The notes beneath the pieces are model-generated. The model saw only the letters and a list, made by a program, of their open reading frames with translations, made no database searches and was not told the DNA's origin. The position numbers were made by a program, and so were the translations under genes. From NCBI GenBank assembly GCA_947629245.1, contig CANRDC010000004.1, positions 25,961 to 89,960 on the forward strand: 64,000 nt of DNA. The letters are read 5' to 3'. Shown in pieces: positions 2,537-26,134 of the stretch; the first letter of the stretch is position 1; each line of letters begins with the position of its first letter. Source of the stretch: an uncultured Oscillospiraceae bacterium. GTDB taxonomy: Bacteria > Bacillota > Clostridia > Oscillospirales > Oscillospiraceae.

Positions 2537-5500
2537 TTATTTCTTGTATTTCAGGCTGTTGCTTGCGGCGTAGCCGCTGAGGAACGTCTTTTTGTCGTTC
2601 ATCACACACCGGACCGTGAACTGGTATGTCTTACCGCTTTTCAGGTACTTCGCCGCGCGGGTGTAGCTCGTCGCAGTTGTGGTGCCGATCTTCTTCCAGT
2701 CCCCGCCGTTCTCCCGGTAGTACACCGCGTATCGGGGCGAACCCTTCACCGCGTTCCAGGTGACCTTGATGCCGTTGGATGCGGCGCTGATCTTCACCTT
2801 CGGCGCGGACAGGTATTTCAGGCTGTTACTGGCGGCGTAGGAGCTCAGCATAGTCTTTTTGTCGTTCTTCACACACCGGACTGTGAACTGATAGGTCACG
2901 CCGGGTTTCAGGTTCGCCGCTTTGCGGGTGTAGCTGGTGGCGGCGGTGGTGCCGATCTTGTGCCATGCGCCGCCGTTCTCCCGGTAATACACCATGTATC
3001 GGCTCGCGCCCGACACCTTGTTCCACGTCACCTTGATACCGCTGGCAGCGGCGCTGATCTTCACCTTCGGCGCGGACAGGTATTTCAGACTGTTGCTGGC
3101 GGCGTAGGAGCTCAGCATGGTCTTTTTGTCGTTCTTCACGCAGCGGACCGTGAACTGGTACGTAACGCCAGATTTCAGCTTGGACGCGGCGCGGGTATAG
3201 CTTGTCGCGGTGGTGGTGCCGATCCTCTTCCAGCTTCCGCCGTTCTCCCGGTAGTAAACCATGTACCGGCTCGCGCCCGACACCTTGTTCCAGCTCACCT
3301 TGATCCCGCCGTTGGTGGCGGCGGAGATGGTCACTGTGGGCGCGGCGTAGTACGTCACGCTCTTGCCCGTCTTGTCGTAGCTTCCGGCCGTGCCGCTCTT
3401 GTCAAAGGCCTTGACCGTGAAGCTATATTTCGTCCCGCTCTTGGCGCCGGCCCAAGTATAGCTGGTGCCCGTCACGTCCTCGATCTTGGTCCAGCTCGTC
3501 TTGCCGCCGCCCTTATAGTACACCCGGTACTTGGCCACGCCGGAGACTTTGCCCCAGCTGATCTTCACGCCGGAGGCCGTATTGCTCGCGCCGCTCAGCT
3601 TCGGCGCGGGGAGCAAACCAGGCGTCACGTTGATCGCGGCGGAGGCGCTGTAGGAGCCGCCCGCCATGGTGGCTGTGATCGTCGCCCTGCCGGGTTTGAC
3701 AGCCGTTACCACGCCGTTTTTGACCGTGGCGACCGACTTGTCGGAGCTGCTCCAAACCAAGGTGTTGGCAGAGAGCTTCGTCGCATTGTCCATGCCGGGG
3801 TTGCGGAAATAATAGGCGGCTTTCGCTGTTTTGCCTGCGGCGATGGACGTGGAGTCCAGCTTCAGCATGGCGGAATAGGCATAATGCTCCGGGTACCATT
3901 GGGTCCCGGAACCGACGGGCGCCTCGTCGAATTCCTCCGTCGCGATCTGGACATTCGCCGTTACGGTCTTGTCCGCGGGCTTCGCACAGTTGGACGTATC
4001 CGTCCCCATGCCGAAGCACTGGACCCAGTAATAGACGCCGTTGACCACCACGCAGCCGACGCCAACGGTCGTGTAGTCCGCCGTCAGGATATTGGCCCGG
4101 TGTCCCTCGGAATTCATCCAAGACTGCATGGCCGCGCTGGGGGTAGCCTGTCCCGCCGCGATGTTTTCAGCGTACATCAGGCTGTTGAGGGACATACAGG
4201 ACGAGCCGTCCGGACGGGTGTGGGCAAACAGGACCGATATCTCGGCCGCCCGCTGCATGGCCGTCTCCAGAAGAGACTGGTTCATGACCAGCGGGGACAG
4301 GCCCTCCTTCTTTCTCTCCTTGTTCACGATGTCCAGCACTTCATAGGCGCTGGCGTAATTCCGCTTGGCCGATACGGCGATCTGCTCCACCTGGCGCAGA
4401 CCGTTTCCGCCGTAGGGCTTGGTCTGCTCATTTTTGGCCGTGACCTTGGTATTGGGGTCAAACGAGCCGTCGGCCACATAGATGACGGAGGCGGGCAGCG
4501 TGATGGATTCCAGTCTCCAGCAGCCGTAGAAGGACTCTCTGTAAATATGGGTGATGCCCTCGTTCAGACGCACCTCGGTCAGCGAGTAGTCGTTAAAAAA
4601 CGTCTGATACGGGATGCAATCGTTCAGACCCAGGCTTGTGAAGCTCTCCAGGTTGCCGCATTCCCCAAAGCAGCCGTTGCCGATCGACTTGATGTTGGCG
4701 GGCAGCGTCACGGACCTCAGGCTGTCGCAATAGGCAAAGGTCCTGGCGTCAAGCTCCTCCAGCCCGGTCCCGAAATCGATCGTTTCCAGCGAGGAACATT
4801 TTGCAAACATTTCATAGCCTGTACACTTGAGACCCTTTCCAAACTTGACCGACTTCAGAGAGGTGCACCCATAAAAGGCGAAATCATCCACCTTCGTCAC
4901 GCTGTCGGGGATCGTCACCGACGTCAGCGCTGCGCCATCAAACGCGGATTCCCCCAGCTCGGTCACGCTGTTGGGGATCGTGACCTGCGTCAGATAGCGG
5001 TTGGTCAGGAATGCGCAGGCCCCTACTTTGGTAACAGTGGAAGGGATGGTGAAGCTCGCGGCAGTATTCCCGCTGGGATAGGCATAGAGCGTCTTGCCTC
5101 CGTCGGTATAAAGAACGCCATTCTTCGCCGTATAAACACTGTTTCCTGCCTCTACCTCATAAGCGCCGATCGCCGTGTTGAAAAAAGCGTTAGAGGCCAT
5201 CTCTTTCAAGTTTTTGCCCAGTTTGAACGTCCGAAGCTTTGTGTTCTGAAACGCGTAGGTGCCGATGCTCACCGCTCCGGGTACGGATACCGCTGTCAAA
5301 CCGGTACATTCCGCAAGCAGCCCTTCGGGGATCTCCTTCACGCCGGAGGGGATCGAGAGGTTCGTCAGGGAGCTGCATCCATAAAATGCACACTTGCCCA
5401 GAGAGGTAACACTAGACGGCAGGGTAACGCTCTTGATCATACTGCACTCGACGAACGCGTAGTCCCCGATGTGGGTCACGCCATTTTTCACATCGACAGC

Positions 5501-15085: not shown

Positions 15086-15478
15086 TCAGTCGCTGCCGGT
15101 GGATCTTGGCGTAGCCGCGGGCCTGCTGCCGCCGTCGCCGTTATTGGTGCCGTTGCCGCTGGTATTGGTCTGATTGCGGCCGGTCACATCGTCAAGCATA
15201 TCCTCTCCGGCGTCCATGATATCGTCCACAGCGTCCTCACCGGCGCCGACGACGCCGTCCACGGCGTCTCTGCCCTCGTCGATGATACCGTCAGCGGAGC
15301 TGTCGGTGGACGCGGGCGTGGCCTTGGCCGTCGGGGTGGGCTTACCGGTCGCGGTGGGCCGGGTCGTCGCGGCAGCTGTGGGCGAGGGCCTTGTCTCGCC
15401 GCTCATGTCCTTGGCGCAGCCGCCCAGCATGGACAGCAGCATGATGGCCGCAAGTATGATCGTCAAGATGCTTTTCAT
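15086..15478 (-). CDS. Small putative lipoprotein with Pro/Thr-Ala-rich region
   Basis: MKSILTIILAAIMLLSMLGGCAKD: signal peptide and lipobox LGGC. Confidence 0.65.
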   Translation of the reverse strand: MKSILTIILAAIMLLSMLGGCAKDMSGETRPSPTAAATTRPTATGKPTPTAKATPASTDSSADGIIDEGRDAVDGVVGAGEDAVDDIMDAGEDMLDDVTGRNQTNTSGNGTNNGDGGSRPAATPRSTGSD

Positions 15479-15567
15479 CTTCTTGCCTCCGTCGTGATAG
15501 TATTGTAACAGCTCTATTATGCCTATATTTCCGCAGATTTTTCATGGGCGCAAAAATTTTTTCTATA

Positions 15568-15840
15568 GCTGACGGGAGACGAACACACGTCGCTCCACAG
15601 GGGCTCTTTTCGGTGCTTTTCGTCTCGTCGTCGTCGGCTTGCGCCAGCAAGCCTTCCTCCTTCTCAGCGAAAATCCCTCGAAAACTGCTCCCTGTGGAGT
15701 GCAAAGCAGTTTCTGGCAAGCGGGTCTGCGTTCGTGCAAGAAAAAGCCCGCAGGGAATACTTTCGTATTGCCAAGGGATTTGACGCCGCACGGGCGCGGA
15801 CCCGCCGCCAGAAACCGACGTGGGTTCGTCTCCCGTCAGC
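15568..15840. repeat. Nested inverted-repeat element, MITE-like or structured ncRNA-like
   Basis: Outer arms GCTGACGGGAGACGAACACACGTCG (15568-15592) and CGACGTGGGTTCGTCTCCCGTCAGC (15816-15840), one mismatch; inner arms CTCCACAGGG/CCCTGTGGAG and GTTTCTGGCAAGCGGGTCTGCG/CGCGGACCCGCCGCCAGAAAC. Confidence 0.75.
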
Positions 15841-15891
15841 TTTGCGCATGTTTTTGTTGCACCGGGGACCGTATTATGCCATAATAGGCGT

Positions 15892-16410
15892 ATGGAACGA
15901 GAGATCACCTGCTGTTTTACCGGCCATCGGGCCGAAAAGCTCCCCTGGCGGGACAATGACCGCGCTCCGGGCTGCGTGCGGCTGAAAGCCGCCCTGGCGG
16001 ACGTGCTGGCCAGCTTATACGCCGGGGGCTTTCGCCATTTCATCTGCGGCATGGCCACGGGCGCGGACATCTACTTCGGCGAGGCGGTGTGCGCCCTGCG
16101 GGAGGAGCGTCCGGACGTGACGCTGGAGGCCGCCGTCCCCTTCCAGGGCCAGGAAAAGCGCTGGAGCGCCTACTGGCAGGCGCGGTATTTTCGCTTGGCC
16201 GAGTCCTGCGACAAGCTCACGGTCCTGCACAGTGCGTATACGCCCACCTGCATGATGGACCGCAACCGCTATATGGTGGACGCGTCCCGCGTGCTGGTGG
16301 CCGTGTACAGCGGCGAGCCCGGCGGCACCCGGAGCACCATGCTCTACGCCATGCGCCAGGGTCTGGAGATCGTGGAGCTGTCCGTGGAGGGCAAGCGGCA
16401 GACGTACTGA
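15892..16410 (+). CDS. SLOG/DUF1273-like (YpsA-like) protein
   Basis: MEREITCCFTGHRAEKLPW...GFRHFICGMATGADIYFGEAVCALREERPDVTLEAAVPFQGQ. Confidence 0.8.
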   Translation: MEREITCCFTGHRAEKLPWRDNDRAPGCVRLKAALADVLASLYAGGFRHFICGMATGADIYFGEAVCALREERPDVTLEAAVPFQGQEKRWSAYWQARYFRLAESCDKLTVLHSAYTPTCMMDRNRYMVDASRVLVAVYSGEPGGTRSTMLYAMRQGLEIVELSVEGKRQTY

Positions 16411-24295: not shown

Positions 24296-26134
24296 ATGGA
24301 TCTATTCTATAAGATCATCGCCCTGCTGGGCGGTCTGGCCATGTTCCTGTACGGCATGCGGGTCATGGGCGACGGACTGAAGAGCTGTTCCGGCAGCGCA
24401 ATGAAGGCGGCTCTCGCCAAGGTCACCAGCAAGCCCGCTCTGGGCTTTCTGCTGGGCACGCTGGTCACCTGCATGATCCAGAGCTCCACCGCCACCATCG
24501 TGCTGACCGTGGGTCTGGTGGGCGCGGGCTTTCTCACCTTCCGCCAGTCCATCGGCATCGTCCTGGGCGCCAACGTGGGCACCGCCATCACCGCCCAGAT
24601 CATCCGCCTCATGGACCTGCAGGCCGGGTCCACCAGCCTCCTGTACCTCTTTAACGCGGAGAATCTGGCCCCCATCGCCCTGGTCATCGGCATCGTGCTG
24701 CTCATGTTCGTCCACGGCAACTCCGCCCAGAACGTGGGGACCATCGCCATGGGCTTCGGCGTGCTGTTCATGGGACTGATCTTCATGAGCGACGCGGTGA
24801 GCAGCTTCGGCAGCTCCCTGAGCGGCCTTTTGACCGCCTTCGAGGGCAACTACTTCCTGGGCTTCCTGGCGGGCACCGCCGTCACCGGCGTCATCCAGAG
24901 CTCCTCCGCCGTCATCGGCATCCTGCAGACCTTCGCAAGCTCCGTGGGCGTTCATTTCTGCGGCGTGCTGGGCGTCATCATCGGCGTCAACATCGGCGAC
25001 TGCCTCACCACCTTCCTGGTCTGCCGCATCGGCGCAAAGCCCGAGCAGATCCGCACGGTCACGGTCCATGTGATCTATAACATCTGCGCGGCCGTGCTGA
25101 TCTCCGCCGTGTTGACCATCTGCCGCGGCACGGGTCTGATCGGCGACGGGCTGTGGTACGCCAGCCTGGACTCCGGCGGCGTGGCCAACGTCCACGGCCT
25201 TTTCCGGCTGGTACCGGCGGTATTGTTCCTGCCTCTGTCCGGGACGTTCGCCAAGCTGGCCGAAAAGCTCGTGCCGGACAAGCCCGCCCCGGCGGAATAT
25301 CAGGACATCGTGGAGAATCTCCGGGAGCTGGACAGCCACCTGGTCACCAACCCCCGCATCGCCCTGGACCAGTCCGCACACCTGATCAGCCATATGGCCG
25401 ACGTGGCGCTGGACAATTTCCTGATCGCCACGCGGCAGCTTTTCGACTATGACCCCAAGCAGGACGAGCGCATCTCCCGACGGGAGGCTCTGCTGGACCG
25501 GATGGCGGACGCCACAAACCAGTATGTGGTGGATCTTTCCTCCCACATCACCCTCTCCTCCGACAACAGGACCCAGAACTTCCAGATCAAGGCCCTCACC
25601 TGCTTTGAGCGCATCGGCGACCTGGCCGTCAGCATCGAGCACGACTGCCAGCGGCTGCGGGAGGGCGGCAAGCCCATCTCAGAGCAGGCCAGGACCGATC
25701 TGCAGGCCGCCATCCACGCCGTGACCGATATCCTGAAGCTCTCCGTCCGGACCTACAAGGAGAACAATATCCGCAGCGCCAGGGCCGTGGAGCCCCTGGA
25801 GGAGGTCATCGACGACCTGATCGAGGCCATGAAGGCCCGGCATGTGGACCGGATGACGAAGGGCGTCTGCGACGTATACACCGGCATCCAGTACCAGAAC
25901 ATCCTCCAGAGCCTGGAGCGGGTGTCCGACCAGTGCTCCGACCTGGGCGTGTACATCCTCAGCCGGGACGACAGCGCCATCACCGGCCAGGAGCACCAGT
26001 ACCTGCACGACCTGCACCACTCCGACAACGAGTCCTACCGCAAGATGTTCCGGGAGAACTATCAGAAGTATTTCCAGGACGTGGGCCAGACGCCAAAAAC
26101 GGACGGCCAGACGCCCGAGACAAAAACATCTTGA
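24296..26134 (+). CDS. Na/Pi cotransporter family protein with C-terminal PhoU-like region
   Basis: LLGGLAMFLYGMRVMGDGLK; duplicated Q-S-S-T/S motifs (CMIQSSTATI, VIQSSSAVIG). Confidence 0.92.
   Translation: MDLFYKIIALLGGLAMFLYGMRVMGDGLKSCSGSAMKAALAKVTSKPALGFLLGTLVTCMIQSSTATIVLTVGLVGAGFLTFRQSIGIVLGANVGTAITAQIIRLMDLQAGSTSLLYLFNAENLAPIALVIGIVLLMFVHGNSAQNVGTIAMGFGVLFMGLIFMSDAVSSFGSSLSGLLTAFEGNYFLGFLAGTAVTGVIQSSSAVIGILQTFASSVGVHFCGVLGVIIGVNIGDCLTTFLVCRIGAKPEQIRTVTVHVIYNICAAVLISAVLTICRGTGLIGDGLWYASLDSGGVANVHGLFRLVPAVLFLPLSGTFAKLAEKLVPDKPAPAEYQDIVENLRELDSHLVTNPRIALDQSAHLISHMADVALDNFLIATRQLFDYDPKQDERISRREALLDRMADATNQYVVDLSSHITLSSDNRTQNFQIKALTCFERIGDLAVSIEHDCQRLREGGKPISEQARTDLQAAIHAVTDILKLSVRTYKENNIRSARAVEPLEEVIDDLIEAMKARHVDRMTKGVCDVYTGIQYQNILQSLERVSDQCSDLGVYILSRDDSAITGQEHQYLHDLHHSDNESYRKMFRENYQKYFQDVGQTPKTDGQTPETKTS

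Follow-up and report, generated by a model that had tools for sequence, protein, structure and literature searches.

What is the 273-bp palindromic insert that separates a lipoprotein gene from a SLOG gene in the genome of an uncultured Oscillospiraceae bacterium? The insert lies in the 64,000-nucleotide stretch that we analysed (hereafter the window; positions 25,961 to 89,960 of contig CANRDC010000004.1), between the lipoprotein ORF (15086-15478, minus strand) and the SLOG gene (ATG near 15893). The original prediction had placed it there and had described nested inverted repeats folding as a three-way junction, free of any convincing ORF, as a candidate MITE or a structured RNA. We found that the 26-nt terminal arms are complementary at 25 of 26 positions (96%) with a spacing of 223 nt, against a best inverted 26-mer repeat of 18/26 in 100 dinucleotide shuffles of the region. 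Hairpin B is closed by arms at 15593-15613 and 15679-15699, with an inner GGCTTGCgccaGCAAGCC at 15636-15653, and hairpin C by arms at 15709-15730 and 15795-15815, with an inner AATACtttcGTATT, both at the positions predicted. The three-way junction is the minimum free energy fold for RNA and DNA alike, reaching -170.9 kcal/mol as RNA (z -12.3, with -107.7 and sd 5.1 in dinucleotide shuffles) and -104.1 as DNA (z -12.5, dinucleotide shuffles). Location, arms and fold thus agree with the prediction, whose 273 bp run from one terminal inverted repeat (TIR) to the other and exclude the flanking TA (Table 1). A coding reading of the element found no support: as anticipated, the ORF listing holds short overlapping frames only, and conservation is structural.

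Table 1. Features of the element, in window coordinates
Feature	Position	Strand	Basis
Whole element, MITE-like, TIR to TIR, 273 bp	15568..15840	.	Inverted repeat; copies in own genome and relatives; empty sites in congeners
Left terminal inverted repeat AGCTGACGGGAGACGAACACACGTCG	15567..15592	+	Inverted-repeat search
Right terminal inverted repeat CGACGTGGGTTCGTCTCCCGTCAGCT, with tRNA T-arm-like GGGTTCG.CTCCC	15816..15841	+	Inverted-repeat search, sequence
TA at left end, candidate target duplication	15566..15567	.	Sequence; 23 copies compared
Hairpin B, diverged second core module, sense on minus strand	15593..15699	-	Fold; R1 match 15595-15689, 25.9 bits
Hairpin C, core module, sense on plus strand	15709..15815	+	R1 match 15708-15823, 111 bits
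Best-conserved segment of the core, GCAGGGAATACTTTCGTATTGCCAAGG; apical hairpin, GCA/AA internal loop	15750..15776	+	Alignment of copies

A strong fold, covariation (see below) and a location between genes, directly upstream of the promoter-like TTGC...CATAAT that is conserved ahead of the SLOG start, could all point to a small RNA gene of the host, or to a non-mobile cis-regulatory element of the SLOG or lipoprotein gene. However, in about 20 congeners both genes are present with contiguous flanks and the insert is absent, which contradicts this reading; other copies, moreover, lie near unrelated genes. We consider a host gene or regulatory element highly improbable. The element inserted recently at this site in this lineage and, since it entered upstream of the promoter-like sequence, disruption is not expected there.

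The element is a repeat, bounded by terminal inverted repeats of about 26 bp, and related elements lie at further sites and in bacteria of other families. The window genome (G000) carries three copies: that of the window, a 91% identical one on C137, and one on C48 without hairpin B. Five congeneric species (G007, G014, G018, G032 and G033) have copies at 90-96% identity, up to four per genome, and more distant ones occur in families f7 (G042 and G085 at 73-78%, G130 at 69-73%) and f23 (G301 at 73-78%). The copies adjoin unrelated genes in varied surroundings, and several have lost hairpin B (L003, L023, L050). Within the genus, a covariance model of the core (R1, see below) has matches in 32 of 35 genomes, with 1-12 copies in each; across the phylum, it has matches in only 5 of 250 genomes, of which three belong to other classes. 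Patchy presence of this kind is typical for mobile elements. Viral contigs yielded no match to the Firmicutes and gammaproteobacterial core patterns, a phage search with the L300 core likewise none, and the plasmid collection held no relative of the gammaproteobacterial element. In 119 copies with crude gene models, orientation was not biased with respect to the adjoining genes, which lends no support to a role for a flanking transcript.

Most copies read TA-GCTGACG...CGTCAGC-TA (23 compared); the window copy has TA at its left end but TT at the right, where most others have TA. A G014 copy splits a gene that is intact at this place in G030 and G033 and that looks like a serine recombinase when its flanking frames are read. 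This is the sole intragenic site with an empty counterpart, relative to which it has one extra T, and a clean TA duplication could not be demonstrated there. TA targeting by the family is likely, and the TA duplication at its ends is a candidate only. Multiple copies in the same genome and in relatives, empty sites and TA at most ends support the predicted MITE: the element is short and non-coding, with terminal inverted repeats, dispersed copies and empty sites.

Several reduced or decorated forms were also seen. Solo palindromes of about 31 bp, TAGCTGACG(N)13CGTCAGCTA, occur at L051:5131-5154, L052:3899-3922, L053:4628-4651, L054:490-513 and 4327-4350, and L055:4927-4950; they comprise one whole arm and the outer end of the other, joined at a GACG microhomology, and resemble hairpin-deletion footprints, with the flank of L053 and L055 common to two species. 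L034 (G006:C48) is a 63-bp version that retains the arms and only about 10 bp of hairpin C. Core-like hairpins with no obvious terminal repeats (L019, L026, L029, L268; tandem once, in L026) sit between a phosphatase-like gene and the small-ORF leader of a downstream gene, a position conserved in several species, and are possibly old or domesticated copies. The right terminal repeat, at 15816-15841 in the window and at the right ends of L046, L108, L172, L189, L227 and L259, resembles the T-arm of a tRNA followed by the 3' strand of the acceptor, GGGTTCGANTCCC...CCTTA, with TTCGA constant and the outer bases variable.

What mobilises the element? No autonomous partner was found, PF13358 being absent from G000 (87% complete) and from the Oscillospiraceae carriers tested. 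Two candidates were discarded: arm-only matches in the genus proved to be the remnants of about 31 bp, and in the longer copies with an interrupted core (L091, L097, L117 and others, 260-321 bp) the insert is a small nested repeat and no transposase. A small repeat, GGGGTCCCCGGCGGGCAAAGCCCG...GAGGAGGAGC, is inserted at one constant point of the core, after GGCTGACGC, in L068, L080, L091, L097, L117, L166, L194 and L208. Terminal repeats in common with an autonomous IS630 were not found in the Oscillospiraceae carriers and were found, in part, only for the gammaproteobacterial relative: that bacterium carries nine IS630 copies, and the outer TAGTGTCGTGTC of some is identical to that of its MITE (12 outer bases). 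Mobilisation in trans would fall to a TA-targeting transposase of the IS630/Tc1-mariner type, which may be missing from the incomplete G000 or may have been lost.

What maintains the interior? A core pattern derived from partial matches, GGGAATACTn(2-4)GTATTnnCAAGG, was scanned against GTDB species genomes and returned at least 119 stretches, nearly all in Oscillospiraceae MAGs of rabbit gut and rumen; three of the matches listed come from gammaproteobacterial MAGs, and a Ureibacillus match (L202) looks like chance. Twenty-four diverse copies were aligned with MAFFT, with no fitting to structure (alignment A1), and gave a consensus of 34 pairs, 24 of them with compensatory change. The covariance model R1 was built from A1 and, with one gammaproteobacterial sequence among its members, is not a pure Firmicutes model; on the whole window, its only match was hairpin C (111 bits). 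The check for covariation that the prediction called for was then possible on 91 distinct R1 matches, in an alignment fitted to structure: 33 of the 34 pairs show two-sided changes (0 of 500 shuffles), and 92.8% of cells are paired versus 63.9 in shuffles, no shuffle or slide coming close. With the orientation of the core set by a sequence motif, G-U exceeds A-C by 203:44 in this set and by 58:14 in A1, which indicates that one strand is the folded one. The internal-loop bases GAG/CC, CAAGG, GCA/AA and ACG are as conserved as the stems, across families and phyla. A search of the element against Rfam (E <= 5) came back empty, as did that of related cores.

These data bear on whether the interior has any function at all. 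In a plain palindromic MITE, stems could be kept paired by template switching or by gene conversion from arm to arm; MITEs of one family are commonly highly paired, and template switching is reported to be able to generate compensatory changes in hairpins (PMC8794818). However, template switching restores Watson-Crick pairs and gives no reason for G-U to outnumber A-C about 4:1, nor does a functionless interior agree with loops as conserved as stems. We regard it as quite unlikely. Covariation and the strand-specific G-U excess support the "structured" part of the prediction: the interior is under structural constraint on one strand.

Hairpin B was below detection in the window-wide search; on the element alone, R1 matched it on the minus strand (15595-15689, 25.9 bits). 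Similar second cores on the opposite strand occur in L172 (30 bits) and, in another class of the phylum, in L254/L259 (39-40 bits). The gammaproteobacterial elements, about 20 per genome, combine an IS630-like terminal repeat with a sense core of 75-87 bits and an antisense core of 51-61 bits. The most fitting reading of the window element is thus a pair of inverted modules of a single structured core, B being a diverged copy of C. Exactly one sense core is then presented whichever strand is read, and the orientation of insertion would not matter.

Is the core confined to the family of the window? G187, from another genus of the family, has 28 occurrences of the core pattern within an element whose ends, ATACTAATATC...GATATTAGTAT, are unrelated, and G000 itself carries a second frame type, on C66, so that one genome holds two kinds of terminal repeat. 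Single-module frames such as that of G187 would lack the orientation independence proposed above. The core is a structured motif that extends beyond the family of the window, to elements of Firmicutes and Proteobacteria whose ends are unrelated. In the literature searched, whose coverage excludes most subscription journals, a core common to several MITE families finds no mention.

The best-known element of comparable design is the Correia repeat (CREE, NEMIS) of Neisseria, a MITE with TA ends for which RNase III processing has been reported (PMC10969869, PMC2649163). Like the window element, it has TA-flanked terminal inverted repeats enclosing a structured hairpin. A Correia sequence used as query matched at 99% in N. 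gonorrhoeae and at 85%, over its inner half only, in Cupriavidus metallidurans CH34; R1 on these two stretches gave 18.1 and 21.4 bits, the best match of each stretch. Two 2.17-Mb N. gonorrhoeae records labelled as plasmids in PLSDB (NZ_CP119140.1, NZ_CP119142.1) look like whole chromosomes. In IMG/VR, the Correia-core pattern picked out 10 contigs, in which R1 matched six places at 30-36 bits (E 1.7e-7 to 6e-6), including one that the pattern had not selected; controls in the same contigs reached about 11 bits (antisense) and 19 bits (best unrelated palindrome), and the ERIC element, another TA-flanked palindrome, 10.7 bits. This test is not fully independent because R1 contains one gammaproteobacterial sequence. 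The Correia inner hairpin thus matches R1 on the sense strand at 18-36 bits and keeps the order CAAGG / CCGCAG-hairpin-CAAGG / ACGCYG, whereas its apical stem reads CAGTAC..GTAC.. where the window core has GGAATAC..GTATT.CC. Correia-type cores also occur in frames other than that of Neisseria (L298, L300, L307). We conclude that the Correia inner hairpin is shared with the window core, by descent or by common constraint. The window element is not itself a Correia repeat: the Neisseria terminal repeat TATAGTGGATTAAC.. is absent and its ends are TAGCTGACGGGAG..; in addition, Correia repeats have one core rather than two, measure 107-155 bp and inhabit another phylum.

Other known systems share single aspects of this design. 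IS630-type MITEs such as RUP of Streptococcus pneumoniae (PMC2229807), likened here by description, are also short and non-autonomous, target TA and fold as hairpins. BOX elements of S. pneumoniae (PMC3049150), likened by organisation, are modular and can lose modules, as do the B-less copies, although the modules here are inverted copies of one core.

How would the core act? We infer a function for it, and think it probable that the element is a non-autonomous MITE mobilised in trans, composed of two inverted modules of a constrained core that acts as a folded single strand. That strand would most likely be RNA, produced by read-through from neighbouring genes; a host factor for double-stranded RNA might bind or cleave it, in analogy to the reported action of RNase III on Correia transcripts (PMC10969869, PMC2649163). 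Against RNA, a G-T wobble would equally favour one strand of single-stranded DNA. The fold could matter as a DNA hairpin, recognised by a recombinase or transposase during replication or transfer. The attC sites of integrons are the obvious parallel, being strand-specific hairpins with conserved unpaired bases and variable stems; the comparison is an analogy only, as the window element has terminal inverted repeats and no integron integrase context. Several features would suit such a hairpin: (i) the excess of G-U (G-T) on one strand, together with conserved unpaired bases; (ii) the lack of orientation bias relative to host transcription; (iii) the occurrence of one core in frames with unrelated ends; and (iv) the short arm-only remnants in several genomes, as expected from hairpin deletion. 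Yet cut-and-paste elements with TA targets act on double-stranded ends, the cores of the intact elements examined always lie inside terminal repeats, and no associated recombinase was seen. Recognition as single-stranded DNA seems unlikely to us, and folded RNA is the form that we favour for the core.

Bacterial MITEs are usually described genus by genus, and their interiors are regarded as filler. A core that keeps compensatory change, strand preference and conserved loops across different ends offers a testable claim on why interiors persist, and R1 detects such elements where sequence search fails. Tentatively, and at a little under even chances, the core may be an old functional single-strand module carried by unrelated miniature transposons across Firmicutes and Proteobacteria, the Correia interior included, with a role in RNA processing, insulation or recognition of single-stranded DNA. 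The shared core also links the long-studied Correia repeats to elements of gut bacteria.
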